Positions 6,184 through 23,014 of a stretch of DNA of 64,000 nt are shown piece by piece; position 1 is the stretch's first letter; every line of letters starts with the position of its first letter. This DNA is from an uncultured Pelagibacteraceae bacterium (GTDB lineage Bacteria; Pseudomonadota; Alphaproteobacteria; Pelagibacterales; Pelagibacteraceae), in assembly GCA_902615425.1 (NCBI GenBank), contig CACMPD010000005.1:1-64000 (forward strand), in the 5' to 3' direction. A program made the position numbers and the translations under genes. The notes beneath the pieces were generated by a model. The model worked only from the letters and a program-made list of their open reading frames with translations, did no database searches and was not told the DNA's origin.

Positions 6184-7104
6184 GTGTCATTGTTAAATCA
6201 AAAAACTTTAAAAAAAATAGCAACTTTTAGTGGAGTTGGACTTCATAATGGAAAATTAGCTAAAGTATTAGTAAAACCCTCTGAACCAAATACAGGAATT
6301 GTTTTTAAAAGAGTAGATTTACAATCAAACAATTATGTTTATCCAAGTTTTAATAATGTAACTAATACATTATTAAATACAACTATATCTAACGAGTACG
6401 GAGTAAAAGTATCAACTATAGAACATTTAATGGGTGCTTTATTTGGATTAGGGATTGATAATGCACTTGTGGAAATAAACAATGAAGAGGTACCAATTTT
6501 AGACGGATCAGCTAAAGAATTTATAGAAATTTTAAAAAGTTGTGGATTAGAAAAAAGTGAAGCACCTATTAAGATAATCAAAATACTTAAAAAAATAAGA
6601 TATAATCACGGAGAGAAGTTTATTTCTATTGAGCCTTCAAAATTAAGTTTGGATATTAACTTTAAATTAAAGTTTGAGGATTGTTTGATTGGAAATCAAC
6701 AAAATAAAATAAATGTGTACGAAGATGATTTAGCAGATATTTTTAACTCAAGAACTTTTTGTTTATTCGACGATGTAGAGAAAATCAAAGAAAAAGGTCT
6801 CGCAAAAGGTGGGAGTTTAGATAATGCAATAGTTGTTAAGGGTAATGAAATCTTAAATTCTGGAAATCTTAGAAATCCCAAAGAGTTTGTTAATCACAAA
6901 ATACTTGATTGTATTGGCGATCTATACACAAGCGGTTATAGAATGATTGGAAATGTAAACTGTTCACAAGGTGGCCATTTTCTGACTAATCAGTTGTTAA
7001 AGAAGGTGTTTGAAAATAAAGAAAACTTTTCAATAATTGAGATACAAGAAAGAAATCTTCCACATACAATTCTAAATAAAAGCTTATTAAGATCAATTGC
7101 TTAA
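6184..7104 (+). CDS. lpxC: UDP-3-O-acyl-N-acetylglucosamine deacetylase (GTG start)
   Basis: FSGVGLHNGK, STIEHLMGAL, EVPILDGSAKEF, NHKILDCIGDL motifs. Confidence 0.96.
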   Translation: MSLLNQKTLKKIATFSGVGLHNGKLAKVLVKPSEPNTGIVFKRVDLQSNNYVYPSFNNVTNTLLNTTISNEYGVKVSTIEHLMGALFGLGIDNALVEINNEEVPILDGSAKEFIEILKSCGLEKSEAPIKIIKILKKIRYNHGEKFISIEPSKLSLDINFKLKFEDCLIGNQQNKINVYEDDLADIFNSRTFCLFDDVEKIKEKGLAKGGSLDNAIVVKGNEILNSGNLRNPKEFVNHKILDCIGDLYTSGYRMIGNVNCSQGGHFLTNQLLKKVFENKENFSIIEIQERNLPHTILNKSLLRSIA

Positions 7105-17914: not shown

Positions 17915-18904
17915 TTATCTACCAATAGCGACCATTTTTTCAACTGACATTCTTGCTTTACTTATTGTTTCTTGATCCATAACAATCTCACCAGTTTCAT
18001 TCTCTAAACAATCTAAAATTTTAGGTAAAGTTATTTTTTTCATGTGAGGACACATGTTACATGGCCTGATAAATTCTACATTTGGATTCTCAACTTGAAT
18101 GTTATCACTCATTGAACATTCAGTAACCATCATAACTTTCTTTGGTTGATTATCTCTAACATAGTTTATCATTCCTGAAGTTGATCCAGCAAAATCACTT
18201 GCCTTGATTACATCTGGTGGACACTCAGGATGAGCTATGATTTTTATACCTGGGTTATTCTTTCTAATGCTTCGAATTTCTTTTTCGTTAAATTGATCAT
18301 GAACAATACAAATTCCTTTCCAAGAAATGATCTCAACATCTGTTTGAGAGGCAACATATTTTGCAAGATAATCATCTGGAAGAAAAATTACTTTCTTAAC
18401 TCCTAAAGATTTTACAATCTTTACAGCATTTGCAGATGTACAACACACATCTGTTTCAGCTTTAACATCTGCAGAAGTATTGACATAAGAAACTACTGGA
18501 ACACCAGGATATTTCTCTTTTAATAATCTTACATCTTTTCCTGTAATTGAAGATGAAAGAGAGCAACCTGCTTTCATATCAGGTAGTAAGACTTTTTTAT
18601 TCGGACTCATTAATTTTGCAGTTTCAGCCATAAAATGTACACCAGCCATAACAATTATATCTGCTGAAGTTTTTGAAGCTTCCACAGCAAGAGCCAGAGA
18701 GTCTGCTGAGAAATCTGCAATACCATGATAAATTTCTGGTGTTTGATAATTGTGAGCTAAAATTACTGCGTTCTTTTCTTTTTTAAGTTTATTTATTTTA
18801 TGTATATAAGGAGCATGCACTGACCATTCAATTTCAGGCATAACCTTGGAGATCTTTTTATAAATAGGATCAGTTGCTTGTTTTACTTCCTCATTAAATT
18901 CCAT
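17915..18904 (-). CDS. nadA: Quinolinate synthase
   Basis: AHNYQTPEIYHGIADFSADSL, MAGVHFMAETAK, CCTSANA, CNMCPHMKKITL motifs. Confidence 0.96.
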   Translation of the reverse strand: MEFNEEVKQATDPIYKKISKVMPEIEWSVHAPYIHKINKLKKEKNAVILAHNYQTPEIYHGIADFSADSLALAVEASKTSADIIVMAGVHFMAETAKLMSPNKKVLLPDMKAGCSLSSSITGKDVRLLKEKYPGVPVVSYVNTSADVKAETDVCCTSANAVKIVKSLGVKKVIFLPDDYLAKYVASQTDVEIISWKGICIVHDQFNEKEIRSIRKNNPGIKIIAHPECPPDVIKASDFAGSTSGMINYVRDNQPKKVMMVTECSMSDNIQVENPNVEFIRPCNMCPHMKKITLPKILDCLENETGEIVMDQETISKARMSVEKMVAIGR

Positions 18905-18961
18905 AATAAAAATTTATCAATTTGAAACCTACTTGTCATTGATTTAATGTGGGTCAAATTT

Positions 18962-19047
18962 GCGGCTATGCTGAAATTGGTAGACAGGCACGGTTGAGGG
19001 CCGTGTGGACCTAGTCCATGAGAGTTCGAGTCTCTCTAGCCGCACCA
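18962..19047 (+). tRNA. tRNA-Leu, anticodon GAG (CCA encoded)
   Basis: Acceptor GCGGCTA/TAGCCGC, anticodon stem CACGG-TTGAGGG-CCGTG (GAG), long variable arm TGGAC-CTA-GTCCA, T-arm GAGAG-TTCGAGT-CTCTC, ACCA end. Confidence 0.97.
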
Positions 19048-19048
19048 A
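19014..19048 (+). repeat. Left att-like copy of 35-bp direct repeat (within tRNA-Leu)
   Basis: GTCCATGAGAGTTCGAGTCTCTCTAGCCGCACCAA, identical to 20738-20772. Confidence 0.93.
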
Positions 19049-19102
19049 AATGAAATTTTTATGGGGACTTTTTAATTAAAAATCTCAAACTTTTGAGCTA
19101 AG

Positions 19103-19131
19103 TGTGCTCAGAGTGTGCTCGTATTGTGCTC
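19103..19131 (+). repeat. Three TGTGCTC heptamers at exact 11-bp spacing (putative recombinase arm sites)
   Basis: TGTGCTC at 19103, 19114 and 19125. Confidence 0.75.
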
Positions 19132-19228
19132 ATTATTTTTTTCAATTTAAAACAATTTAGACTCAACGTTTAGGATTTGATAATGTTGGATCATGAAAAA
19201 ACTTTTATAGATCGTGGTTCTGGGCTAG

Positions 19229-19792
19229 ATGATAAAATTCAAAAAAAAATTATTATTCATTACAAATAATATTAAAAAATCATTTAAGAATTCTTTTAAT
19301 TATAAAGGAAGATCTCCTAGATCAGAATTTTGGATTTTACAAATATTTTCTATAATTTTTACTTCTGTAGTCATTTTTATCTTTATAGAGATGGAAACAT
19401 ATATGCTGGATAAAACCCAAAATAGTATATTTATGAATTTTGGTACGGAACTAGATAAAGGTCTCACTGGTGATGATTTGATGAAAAAATATGAAAAGCA
19501 ATTAGATATATACTTAAATTTAGTGTTTTATTTTTCTTATGCAATATTTTTATTTCCTTTGCTATCGCTAACAGTTAGACGCCTACATGATTTTGGAAAG
19601 TCAGGATATGTGTTAATTTTATTTTTAATGATTTCAGTCCCATTAGAAATAATAGATTTAAAAAGAGGCTGGATAGCTGATGATACGAATTTAACTTATT
19701 TTTGGTATGCCTTTACTATTGTTTGGCTTTTATATTTGTCTCAGAAATCTGATAAAAGAAAAAATAAATATGGACCAGTGCCAAAATATTAA
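19229..19792 (+). CDS. DUF805 family membrane protein
   Basis: FNYKGRSPRSEFWILQIF...RRLHDFGKSGYVLIL...KYGPVPKY, characteristic of DUF805 (YhaH-like). Confidence 0.85.
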   Translation: MIKFKKKLLFITNNIKKSFKNSFNYKGRSPRSEFWILQIFSIIFTSVVIFIFIEMETYMLDKTQNSIFMNFGTELDKGLTGDDLMKKYEKQLDIYLNLVFYFSYAIFLFPLLSLTVRRLHDFGKSGYVLILFLMISVPLEIIDLKRGWIADDTNLTYFWYAFTIVWLLYLSQKSDKRKNKYGPVPKY

Positions 19793-19888
19793 AAATAATG
19801 AAAAAACTAAAGCCCATCTAGTTTTATTTGAGGGAATTAAAATTCAGCTAATTAAAAAAGGGATTGCTTTTAAATGACACAAGATAGT

Positions 19889-20182
19889 TCAATGTCTATC
19901 TATATCTTTTTTAATCTCATGCGCCATCTCTTTTTCATCAAGTAAAGAAGAGTTTCTAGATAAAACATCCATAAAAGTAATTGAAGTAGCAATTGTTAAA
20001 TAAAGTATTCCAATTGAGTAAATAATTATGGCATTAGTTGAAAATAAACCTTCTCTAAAGGCTATTATTATAATGAAAATAAATATAACTATACCTAATA
20101 AAATTAAAACAGATTGAAGTTTATTTATTTTTTTTTTCTTGAAGACATATGACTTGAATATACTCCAAAAAATAAATAATAT
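19889..20182 (-). other. Open frame (97 codons) for a small membrane protein with no ATG/GTG/TTG start; possible decayed or non-canonical-start gene
   Basis: Frame is open between TAG (20183-20185) and TGA (19889-19891): ILFIFWSIFKSYVFKKKKINKLQSVLILLGIVIFIFIIIIAFREGLFSTNAIIIYSIGILYLTIATSITFMDVLSRNSSLLDEKEMAHEIKKDIDRH. Confidence 0.4.
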
Positions 20183-20252
20183 CTATTTGTCCGTGATTTA
20201 GAAAAAACTCTACTTGCTTCGGACATAAAACAATAACGCTAAAGGAGGAAAT

Positions 20253-20435
20253 ATGGCTACCGTAAAAGGTATCTACAATCTAATAAAACAAGACCAGCTC
20301 AAAGGTATTAAAATATCTGTAATGGATCAGGCTATTATTGATGCTTGTGAAGCTGAAAACTCAAAAACTACAAAGGAAGTCAATTTAACTTTCATCAAAT
20401 ATAAAAAAGATGGGGGTGAAAATGGCAACAATTAA
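20253..20435 (+). CDS. Small protein of unknown function, copy 1 of a tandem paralogous pair
   Basis: Strong Shine-Dalgarno AAAGGAGGAAATATG; paralogous to the following ORF. Confidence 0.75.
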   Translation: MATVKGIYNLIKQDQLKGIKISVMDQAIIDACEAENSKTTKEVNLTFIKYKKDGGENGNN

Positions 20436-20595
20436 AAGTGTCTATGAACTTTTAAAAAAAAAGAAAGCTTCAGGTGAAAAGATTGGAATACTTGGACAAT
20501 CTTTAATTGAGGCCTTTGAGGAAGAAAAGGAAATTTCGAACACAAAAGAAGTTCATGTCTCCTTTATTAAATATAAAGACAAAAAGGATAAATAG
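20422..20595 (+). CDS. Small protein of unknown function, copy 2 of a tandem paralogous pair
   Basis: Start MATIKSVYELL at 20422 aligns with MATVKGIYNLI of copy 1; shared C-terminal KEVxxxFIKYK; overlaps copy 1 by 14 bp. Confidence 0.75.
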   Translation: MATIKSVYELLKKKKASGEKIGILGQSLIEAFEEEKEISNTKEVHVSFIKYKDKKDK

Positions 20596-20609
20596 ATCCT
20601 TTATAAATT

Positions 20610-20633
20610 CTCTGGCTTCTAATGGAGCCAGAG
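20610..20633 (+). terminator. Hairpin, probable terminator of the small-protein pair
   Basis: CTCTGGCT-tctaatgg-AGCCAGAG perfect 8-bp stem, T-rich stretch further downstream. Confidence 0.6.
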
Positions 20634-20666
20634 GATCAGTTTAAAATGATAATAATTTTTTCTGAC

Positions 20667-20684
20667 TGTGCTCAGATTGTGCTC
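20667..20684 (+). repeat. Two TGTGCTC heptamers at 11-bp spacing (putative recombinase arm sites)
   Basis: TGTGCTC at 20667 and 20678; the 20 bp from 20667 match 19103-19122 at 19/20 positions. Confidence 0.75.
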
Positions 20685-20737
20685 GTTGAAAGTTGTATTT
20701 GCAAAATTAGTAAGTTAATTAATATTTAATAGACAAT

Positions 20738-20772
20738 GTCCATGAGAGTTCGAGTCTCTCTAGCCGCACCAA
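20738..20772 (+). repeat. Right att-like copy of 35-bp direct repeat (tRNA-Leu 3' fragment)
   Basis: GTCCATGAGAGTTCGAGTCTCTCTAGCCGCACCAA without the rest of a tRNA upstream. Confidence 0.93.
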
Positions 20773-20775
20773 TAT

Positions 20776-21663
20776 TTAAATTTTTAGCCATTCGGGCACG
20801 AAAACTCTAAAAGAACTGTTTTTACCCTGAAATATTTTGTTTTTTTCAAAATTTGAGTCTAAATATTTAATTAGGGCAAAAGGATACGTTTCATTAATTA
20901 AGACTTTCCCAATCTCAACATTATTATTAAAAACACTTTCATTCTCAATTAATTCTCCATTAATAATTTCGATTGGTAGTAATCTTTTTGAAAGCTTATT
21001 CTTTAATTTTATTCTGGCAGTATTTTCTTGCCCAACATAACATCCTTTTTTAAAGTCAATACCATTTAGCTCTTCAAAGTTACACTCGATACCAAATAAT
21101 TTATTTTTCAATTTATTTAAGTCTTTTGGAACTATACCAAGCTTATGACTATGAATATAATAGTTTTCAATTTTATCGTTTTTAAGATCAAGTTTTTTCA
21201 AAGATAAATAAAGTTTTTCAAGATTAATTATAAGTCTAGCACCCAAGTGTTTATTTCTTGGATCTATAAAAATAGGATCTTCTCTATACTTAAATGTAAA
21301 ACCCAAGACATCCTTTGCACCTTCAATAGATAAATATTTTTCATATCCAAAACTAGCAACTACAAATTCGTTACTTAAATTAAGAATTTCTACTTTTGAT
21401 CTTAATTTATATAAATTTAATTGCTTAAATATCTCTTCAGATTGAGATTTTTCACAATCAATAAAGTAGCCCAATTTGTGTTTTACAACCATGAATTCAT
21501 ATAAAAACTTACCTTGTGGAGTAAACAATGATGCAAAACAACTGGAGTTATCTGTAACTTTATTAATGTCATTGCTAATCAGATTTTGCAAAAAATTTTT
21601 TGCATCTGAACCATTGACGTAAAGTATGGCTCTATCTTCTAATATATAAACACTATTATTCAT
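20776..21663 (-). CDS. ygfZ: YgfZ/GcvT-fold folate-binding (tRNA-modifying) protein
   Basis: KGCYVGQENTARIK signature; LILVNGSDAKNFLQNLISND-type N-terminus starting MNNSVYILEDRAILYVNGSDA at 21663 (ORF extends to 21726). Confidence 0.9.
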   Translation of the reverse strand: MNNSVYILEDRAILYVNGSDAKNFLQNLISNDINKVTDNSSCFASLFTPQGKFLYEFMVVKHKLGYFIDCEKSQSEEIFKQLNLYKLRSKVEILNLSNEFVVASFGYEKYLSIEGAKDVLGFTFKYREDPIFIDPRNKHLGARLIINLEKLYLSLKKLDLKNDKIENYYIHSHKLGIVPKDLNKLKNKLFGIECNFEELNGIDFKKGCYVGQENTARIKLKNKLSKRLLPIEIINGELIENESVFNNNVEIGKVLINETYPFALIKYLDSNFEKNKIFQGKNSSFRVFVPEWLKI

Positions 21664-21706
21664 ATTTGATTGATATCTGATTTTAATATAATAACTTTTC
21701 TCAAAA

Positions 21707-23014
21707 ATGTTAGATCTAATAATCAAAAATGGGCAATGTTATATTAACGGGAAGTTAGAGAATAAAGATGTTGCTATTAAAGATGGCAAGATATCAAAAA
21801 TTGGTGAAGTATCAGAAGAAGCAAAAGAAGTGTATGATGCAAAAAACCTTATAGTGCTACCTGGATGCATTGATACCCAAACTCATTTTAGAGAACCAGG
21901 CTCAACAGACACAGAGGATCTTCATTCTGGAAGTAGAGCTGCAGTCGCAGGAGGTATCACTGCAGTATTTGAAATGCCAAATACCAATCCGCCCACATCC
22001 AACATTAAAGAATTTCAAAGAAAATTAGATCTTGCGAAAAATAGAATGTATTGCAATTACGCTTTCTATTTTGGTGCAACAGCAGAAAACGTCAATCAAT
22101 TAGCAGAACTCAAAAATTTAGAGGGATGCTGTGGTATCAAATTATTTGTAGGTTCATCAACAGGTAATCTTTTGGTAGCACTTGAGGAGGATATCGATAA
22201 AGTCTTTCAACATTGCTCAAGAATTGTTGCTGTTCATTCGGAAGATGAGGAAATTTTAAATAGGAATAAAAAATTAATTAAAAGTGGAGATGTACATTCG
22301 CACCCTGTTTGGAGAAGTGAGGAGTGTGCTATTTCTTCAACTAGAAGAATTGTTAGAATTGCAAAAAAATATAATAAGAAAGCTCATGTTCTTCATATTA
22401 CAACTAAACAAGAAATAGATTTTTTATCTCAACACAAAGGCAATATTACTTTTGAAATTACCCCACAACATTTAACAATCTATGCACCAGATTGTTATGA
22501 TAAACTTGGAACATATGCGCAAATGAATCCGCCAATTAGAGATAAATCTCATTACGATCGATTATGGTATGCGGTTAAAAATAATATCAATGACACCATT
22601 GGCTCAGATCATGCTCCACACTTAAAAGTAAACAAAGATAAAGAATATCCCAATTCACCCTCAGGAATGCCAGGTGTCCAAACACTTATGCCAGTGATGT
22701 TAAACCATGTTAATAATGGAAAATTATCACTCAATCGATTAATGAGTCTGGTATGTGAAAATCCAATTAAAATATTTGGAATAAAGAATAAAGGATTTAT
22801 TAAAGAAGGCTATGATGCTGATTTCACGATTGTTGATATGAATAAAAAGATTGTGATTAAAAATGAAAATATTGAGAGTAAATGTGGCTGGTCACCTTTC
22901 AATGACGTTGAATTTAAAGGCACTCCGGTTGCAACAATTATCGCTGGTAAAACAAAAATGAGAGATGGTAAAATTTTAGGAGATCCAGAAGGAACCCCAT
23001 TAGAGTTTAATTAA
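21707..23014 (+). CDS. pyrC: Dihydroorotase
   Basis: PGCIDTQTHFREPGST, EMPNTNPPT, GSDHAPH motifs. Confidence 0.9.
   Translation: MLDLIIKNGQCYINGKLENKDVAIKDGKISKIGEVSEEAKEVYDAKNLIVLPGCIDTQTHFREPGSTDTEDLHSGSRAAVAGGITAVFEMPNTNPPTSNIKEFQRKLDLAKNRMYCNYAFYFGATAENVNQLAELKNLEGCCGIKLFVGSSTGNLLVALEEDIDKVFQHCSRIVAVHSEDEEILNRNKKLIKSGDVHSHPVWRSEECAISSTRRIVRIAKKYNKKAHVLHITTKQEIDFLSQHKGNITFEITPQHLTIYAPDCYDKLGTYAQMNPPIRDKSHYDRLWYAVKNNINDTIGSDHAPHLKVNKDKEYPNSPSGMPGVQTLMPVMLNHVNNGKLSLNRLMSLVCENPIKIFGIKNKGFIKEGYDADFTIVDMNKKIVIKNENIESKCGWSPFNDVEFKGTPVATIIAGKTKMRDGKILGDPEGTPLEFN

Follow-up and report, generated by a model that had tools for sequence, protein, structure and literature searches.

The window analyzed here is a 64,000-nucleotide stretch of an uncultured Pelagibacteraceae genome (contig CACMPD010000005.1, positions 1 to 64,000), and it carries a small island between tRNA-Leu(GAG) and a ygfZ-like gene (Table 1). 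The island is bounded by two copies of a 35-bp repeat, 1,724 bp apart, which corresponds to the last 34 nt of the tRNA plus one base. A sequence-only reading of this DNA had pointed out the duplication; it is exact, and it is the sole exact repeat of at least 25 bp in the window. A third copy was not found in a genome-wide search, and an Rfam search over positions 18500 to 21500 gave no match at the gathering threshold.

Table 1. Features of the island at tRNA-Leu(GAG) and of its flanks (positions in the window)
Feature	Position	Strand	Basis or remark
nadA, left host flank	17915..18904	-	ORF; adjoins the tRNA in relatives too
tRNA-Leu(GAG), target; the left end of the island restores the gene	18962..19047	+	ARAGORN
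attL, first copy of the 35-bp repeat	19014..19048	+	Exact repeat
Left module, conserved over ~120-160 nt among islands with differing cargo	19049..19190	+	Alignment
Left putative arm-type repeats, TGTGCTC x3 (starts 19103, 19114, 19125)	19103..19131	+	11-bp period
Promoter-like TTTAGA-17-GATAAT	19156..19184	+	Consensus match only
DUF805 membrane protein, cargo, 187 aa	19229..19792	+	Pfam PF05656, E=7e-19
Start-less membrane ORF	19889..20182	-	Stop-to-stop ORF, 97 codons
sA, small cargo gene, 60 aa	20253..20435	+	Near-identical homolog in AG-359-I14
sB, small cargo gene, 57 aa	20422..20595	+	Paralog of sA
Right module type A	20664..20747	+	Sequence identity, 96.4% to AG-898-C07
Right putative arm-type repeats, TGTGCTC x2 (starts 20667, 20678)	20667..20684	+	11-bp period
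attR, second copy of the 35-bp repeat; fragment of the tRNA	20738..20772	+	Exact repeat
ygfZ-like gene, right host flank	20776..21726	-	Abuts the tRNA in empty-site relatives

The gene content given by the sequence-only reading, namely, a DUF805 gene, a start-less membrane ORF, and two tandem small genes, was confirmed in full by ORF and Pfam analysis. The start-less ORF is probably decayed cargo. The small genes sA and sB are tandem paralogs (43 to 46% identical), and more distant homologs of this family are present in other SAR11 genomes. In G149, G118, and G135 (L148 to L150), sA/sB homologs lie beside other uncharacterized small genes, with no tRNA in the stretch examined. The AlphaFold model of sA consists of two helices, with a mean pLDDT of 75 and a pTM of 0.45, and was considered of too low quality to take into a fold search. 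As that reading had also stated, there is no recombinase in the interval, nor are there integration or transfer genes, as judged from ORFs, Pfam, and PHROGs; the single PF00589 match in the whole genome is on another contig. Pfam and PHROGs revealed no capsid, packaging, or replication gene in the island, and searches of DUF805, sA, and the entire island against phages gave nothing relevant.

The close relative G104, with amino acid identities to the window of 97.6% for nadA and 95.2% for ygfZ, harbors an empty site in which ygfZ directly follows the tRNA, and the sequence to the right of attR in the window aligns with this tRNA-ygfZ junction. The island in the window is therefore bounded by attL and attR, with a duplicated tRNA 3' end and an empty counterpart in a relative. 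Among 151 congeners, the tRNA and ygfZ are on one contig in 70 and collinear in 69. The gap between them is shorter than 20 bp in 37 of the 69 collinear sites, so that about half are empty, and ranges from 188 to 3,587 bp in the other 32, which include the window's genome. The longer gaps are filled with differing DNA, in several cases without the arm repeats described below or a recognizable attR. Nine such occupied sites (G100, G117, G127, G133, G040, G075, G034, G017, and G042) have no arms, carry different cargo, and show no recognizable attR; they were not assigned to the family. The sequence-only reading had proposed comparing this junction across relatives, and both empty sites and alternative cargos were found. 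They contradict the presence of an identical 1.7-kb segment in all relatives with no empty site, and equally an old tRNA duplication with vertical inheritance. Together with the att repeat, they bear out the description of an att-flanked, integrase-less integrated element at the tRNA-ygfZ junction.

Inside both ends of the island are tandem repeats of TGTGCTC, a new observation that the sequence-only reading had missed. The heptamer occurs five times in the window, always in the island and near its ends. In a random test with 200,000 pairs of 100-bp segments drawn from the window, a shared 7-mer in tandem at 11 bp turned up only once. By analogy, these repeats are putative arm-type sites at which a tyrosine integrase would bind through its N-terminal domain. 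Their position and spacing match the arm words of two SAR11 islands with an integrase of their own. One is a 7.7-kb autonomous island at tRNA-Thr(TGT) in G039 (L133, 1058 to 8875), with the tRNA end repeated over 46 bp, TGACTACA arm pairs with 11-bp spacing at either end, and a 451-aa integrase. The other, of ~9 kb, lies on the 5' side of tRNA-Val(TAC) in G096 (L125, 6156 to 15001, and L178, 415 to 560), with the 5' part of the tRNA duplicated, TGCGTAGA arm pairs, and a 467-aa integrase. Arm-DNA-bind_3 is present in both integrases, whereas the Xer-like protein common in SAR11 lacks an arm domain and contains only a SAM-like domain for core binding. The islands with an integrase thus have the same anatomy as the mini-islands but different arm words. 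A 316-aa integrase located between inverted TGTCACAA pairs with an 11-bp period was also seen in G082 (L128, 5120 to 8097).

Our results establish that islands without an integrase share common end modules around unrelated cargo at this tRNA. A fuller motif, TGTGCTCANANTGTGCTCRT, matched 18 contigs in 84,980 genomes; 12 of these are from Pelagibacteraceae, and all 12 matches lie beside tRNA-Leu(GAG), with varying cargo. A looser arm pair gave 13 matches in 399 congeneric genomes against 1 for the reversed control; when this pair was sought in 397 genomes from across the family, 4 had it, and these 4 belong to the same genus. The genome sets of these searches overlap, so that the counts are not independent. 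As in the window, arms and att are present at both ends in AG-337-D17, AG-898-C07, AG-470-P06, and AG-343-E19, the left arms being partly degenerate in the last two. In other copies, attR has been lost or the island stops at a contig edge; loss of attR or degenerate arms were seen in AH-326-F07, AH-287-G05, AG-916-F23, and AG-333-A04, with the right arms degenerate in the latter two. The att-to-att spacing across the family is about 1.2 to 2.4 kb. The promoter-like spacing is kept across alignable left modules, most of which carry TTTAGA-17-nt-G.TAA (consensus only). Whereas the window carries DUF805 plus sA/sB, cargo elsewhere includes DUF1330 (in one copy with an additional 471-aa protein without a Pfam match), a 2OG-Fe(II) oxygenase, a glutaminase with ankyrin and EF-hand, a trypsin-like protease, and several proteins of no known kind. 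Another copy has a T5orf172 protein, which is a candidate antiphage protein (PADLOC PDC-S57, E=1e-70), and a second gene in common with AG-916-F23.

Arm-like pairs were also observed at other sites. In G365 (L109, 6371 to 8219), an integrase-less island lies 5' of tRNA-Val, whose 5' half is duplicated, and both of the island's ends have TGTGC-type arm pairs (6545 and 8113). In G153 (L108, 2300 to 6340), two TGTGCTCAGTT arm pairs 3.5 kb apart enclose a gene for a 1,036-aa repeat-rich protein and adjoin sequence resembling a tmRNA segment of other genomes; to their left is a related TGTTATCAGTT pair. A short stretch of L108 with a small ORF (6242 to 6350) recurs in 78 of the 151 congeners. In AG-447-P13 (L044, 11,915 bp), the order is right part of the island, ygfZ, pyrC, nadA, and tRNA, which suggests a misjoin or rearrangement.

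Cargo and right ends have recently been transferred between strains. The second cargo gene is 99.2% identical between AG-916-F23 and AG-390-A02, whose nadA genes are 83.8% identical, and the right module of the window is 96.4% identical to that of AG-898-C07, against 83.3% for nadA. In the same series set against nadA, sA/sB of AG-359-I14 give 97.7% against 93.6%. Identities of 96 to 99% beside a flanking gene at about 83% indicate recent movement between strains. In AG-359-I14, the window-type small genes extend to an 18-bp TGTGCTCAGATTGTGCTC and are followed by the left module of a DUF1330 island, the fusion point being exactly the 18-bp arm pair. The sequence suggests that two tandem islands were present and that the stretch between arm repeats was deleted.

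The distribution of sequence variation points to where recombination may occur. The T-arm sequence GAGAG-TTCGAGT-CTCTC lies within attL (19020 to 19036). Variation in att between islands is located upstream of the T-arm in attR, and the sequence downstream of it is of the host type; because of this pattern, the crossover core is probably the T-arm sequence itself, or near it. The acceptor-stem half of attL and attR corresponds to the host's own tRNA sequence in every copy read. This is not expected of simple cross-clade integration, so other routes must be assumed. The donors may have belonged to the same clade, incoming islands may have inserted at an attR already in place, or homologous recombination may have followed, and we do not choose among these.

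A source of the recombinase was sought in carriers, relatives, and viruses. Twelve motif-carrying genomes were searched, 10 with the motif at tRNA-Leu(GAG) and two (G153 and G365) with it elsewhere. They are 54 to 91% complete. PF00589 matched one Xer-like protein in 8 of the 12 and nothing in the other 4. No serine recombinase (PF00239; 13 genomes searched) and no arm-binding integrase was found in the 12 carriers, which are mostly incomplete single-cell assemblies, so that the absence of an integrase in them is not final. None of the PF00589 proteins of the 151 congeners lies at tRNA-Leu(GAG), and neither an integrase-bearing form with TGTGCTC arms nor an autonomous relative with mini-island ends was present in the 84,980 genomes or in the 399 and 397 relatives. 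A search of the integrase neighborhoods L122 to L137 for TGTGCTC pairs, in which up to 2 mismatches were allowed, turned up a TGTGCTG pair in G120, one doubtful pair in G036, and nothing else. The G120 pair (L129, 15677 to 15694) has a period of 11 bp and lies 100 bp 5' of tRNA-Leu(TAA); no partner was found for it at another end, and it was rejected.

The sequence-only reading had also suggested a search for pelagiphage integrases with a matching attP. None came to light: IMG/VR gave no matching attP or arm pair and no viral contig with the motif, and the 13 pelagiphage integrase regions searched lack both TGTGCTC and the GAG tRNA end. Pelagiphages do carry integrases that adjoin tRNA-Leu(TAA) or tRNA-Leu(TAG) sequences. 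HTVC119P was dismissed as a helper, its tRNA-Leu being TAA and not GAG. Viral contigs with this tRNA end mostly carry whole-tRNA genes of other viruses, and none is pelagiphage-like; a looser arm pattern was present on four viral contigs, whose context and base composition are different. A cognate integrase, an attP, a circular form, or any sign of excision was not found in anything searched.

We consider it probable that these loci represent a family of nonautonomous mini-islands at tRNA-Leu(GAG), integrated in trans by an arm-binding tyrosine integrase. In this model, attL and attR would arise from site-specific recombination within the tRNA T-arm, and the 11-bp-spaced TGTGCTC arm sites would bind the N-terminal domain of an integrase supplied by another element or phage. 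The left module would provide promoter-like sequence for an exchangeable cargo. Incoming copies could stack at attR, where a subsequent deletion from one arm repeat to another would fuse their cargos, as may have occurred in AG-359-I14. We infer a helper integrase, and thus a recombinase acting in trans, because arm repeats are intact at both ends, no arm-binding integrase was found in the carriers, and spread is recent. On the same grounds, the mobilization in trans put forward by the sequence-only reading is supported as far as the recombinase is concerned, but for its attribution to a phage no matching attP or arms were found in IMG/VR or the 13 pelagiphage integrase regions, so that a phage satellite is only one option. 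Counting against the mini-island model, the searches gave no cognate integrase, attP, or circular form, the acceptor halves of the att copies are of the host type, and some copies lack attR or have degenerate arms, as in decaying elements.

The main rival, which we regard as possible but not likely, is that the islands are decayed remnants (CIMEs) of larger integrase-bearing islands that lost their integrase; site-specific movement would have ended, and the diversity would be due to homologous recombination of the tRNA-ygfZ locus and its cargo. The copies without attR or with degenerate arms agree with such decay, as do the acceptor halves of both att copies, which are always of the host type, the existence of integrase-bearing islands elsewhere in SAR11, and the decayed appearance of the start-less ORF in the window. 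However, no integrase-bearing form with these arms turned up in the genome sets searched, islands that retain arms plus att at either end around differing cargo persist (the window, AG-337-D17, AG-898-C07, and AG-470-P06), and right modules are nearly identical across hosts with clearly diverged nadA genes. A special case of the trans model, in which the islands are phage satellites excised and packaged by a pelagiphage integrating at tRNA-Leu(GAG), seems improbable. The location of pelagiphage integrases beside other tRNA-Leu sequences and the antiphage candidate among the cargo are in its favor, but it is at odds with the viral contigs and the pelagiphage integrase regions, as well as with an island devoid of recognized capsid, packaging, or replication genes. 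Tandem duplication could in principle yield a partial tRNA copy; nonetheless, an old duplication inherited vertically with no mobile element is highly improbable in view of the empty sites in close relatives, the different cargo at the same point, the arm repeats at both ends, and the cross-clade identity.

If mini-islands are moved in trans, the locus may, tentatively, reflect a population-wide exchange of genes in SAR11, with one tRNA as the dock, a standard kit of ends (att, arms, and a promoter-like start), visiting integrases, carriers without a recombinase, changing single genes, and arms that serve as cargo seams. If this is true, the arm word at tRNA-Val in G365 and at the tmRNA-like fragment in G153 would imply a multisite system. 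SAR11 genomes are among the most streamlined, with few recognized mobile elements, and recombinase-less elements of 1 to 2 kb evade island and prophage finders. Single genes, such as the neighbor of the antiphage candidate and small uncharacterized genes, have moved between strains that are ~16% divergent at the neighboring gene, and a glutaminase or a protease-like protein is encoded by other copies. With the arm word as a simple sequence handle, mini-islands could be spotted in single-cell genomes and reads, and so could their helper.

Among the papers listed by literature searches on phages and islands of SAR11, on satellites, on CIMEs, and on tycheposons, none describes such elements in its title or opening abstract, although an earlier description is possible. 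The mini-islands may be likened to integron gene cassettes in having exchangeable cargo beside a recombination site and promoter-like sequence, but no integron integrase was recognized, the tRNA is not an attI site, and no cassette array was seen. Like PICIs and other phage satellites, they would be nonautonomous, integrated, and dependent on a helper. Satellites such as PICIs normally bear their own integrase and helper-interference genes, whereas neither was recognized in the mini-islands. The SAR11 islands L133 and L125 share with them the tRNA repeat, the 11-bp-spaced arm words near both ends, and the general layout, but differ in size, arm words, and the possession of their own Arm-DNA-bind_3 integrase. 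Tycheposons, as outlined in PMC10872708, are elements of 4 to 200 kb with a tyrosine recombinase that reside at tRNA genes of streamlined aquatic bacteria. They are likewise cargo-carrying, tRNA-located, and based on tyrosine recombination in such hosts, but the island in the window, at 1.7 kb and with no recombinase, falls outside a definition of at least 4 kb plus a recombinase. The closest known kind is the CIME, whose definition, as far as it is laid out in PMC5704250, the mini-islands appear to fit by anatomy: att sites are kept, integration and transfer genes are absent, and accretion with an incoming element at attR, as the AG-359-I14 fusion at the arm pair may indirectly suggest, would be possible. 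CIMEs are described there as ICEs or IMEs, from conjugative systems, that have decayed; the mini-islands differ in having no known parent ICE, in their size of 1.2 to 2.4 kb, and in their strain-varying cargo between related end modules.
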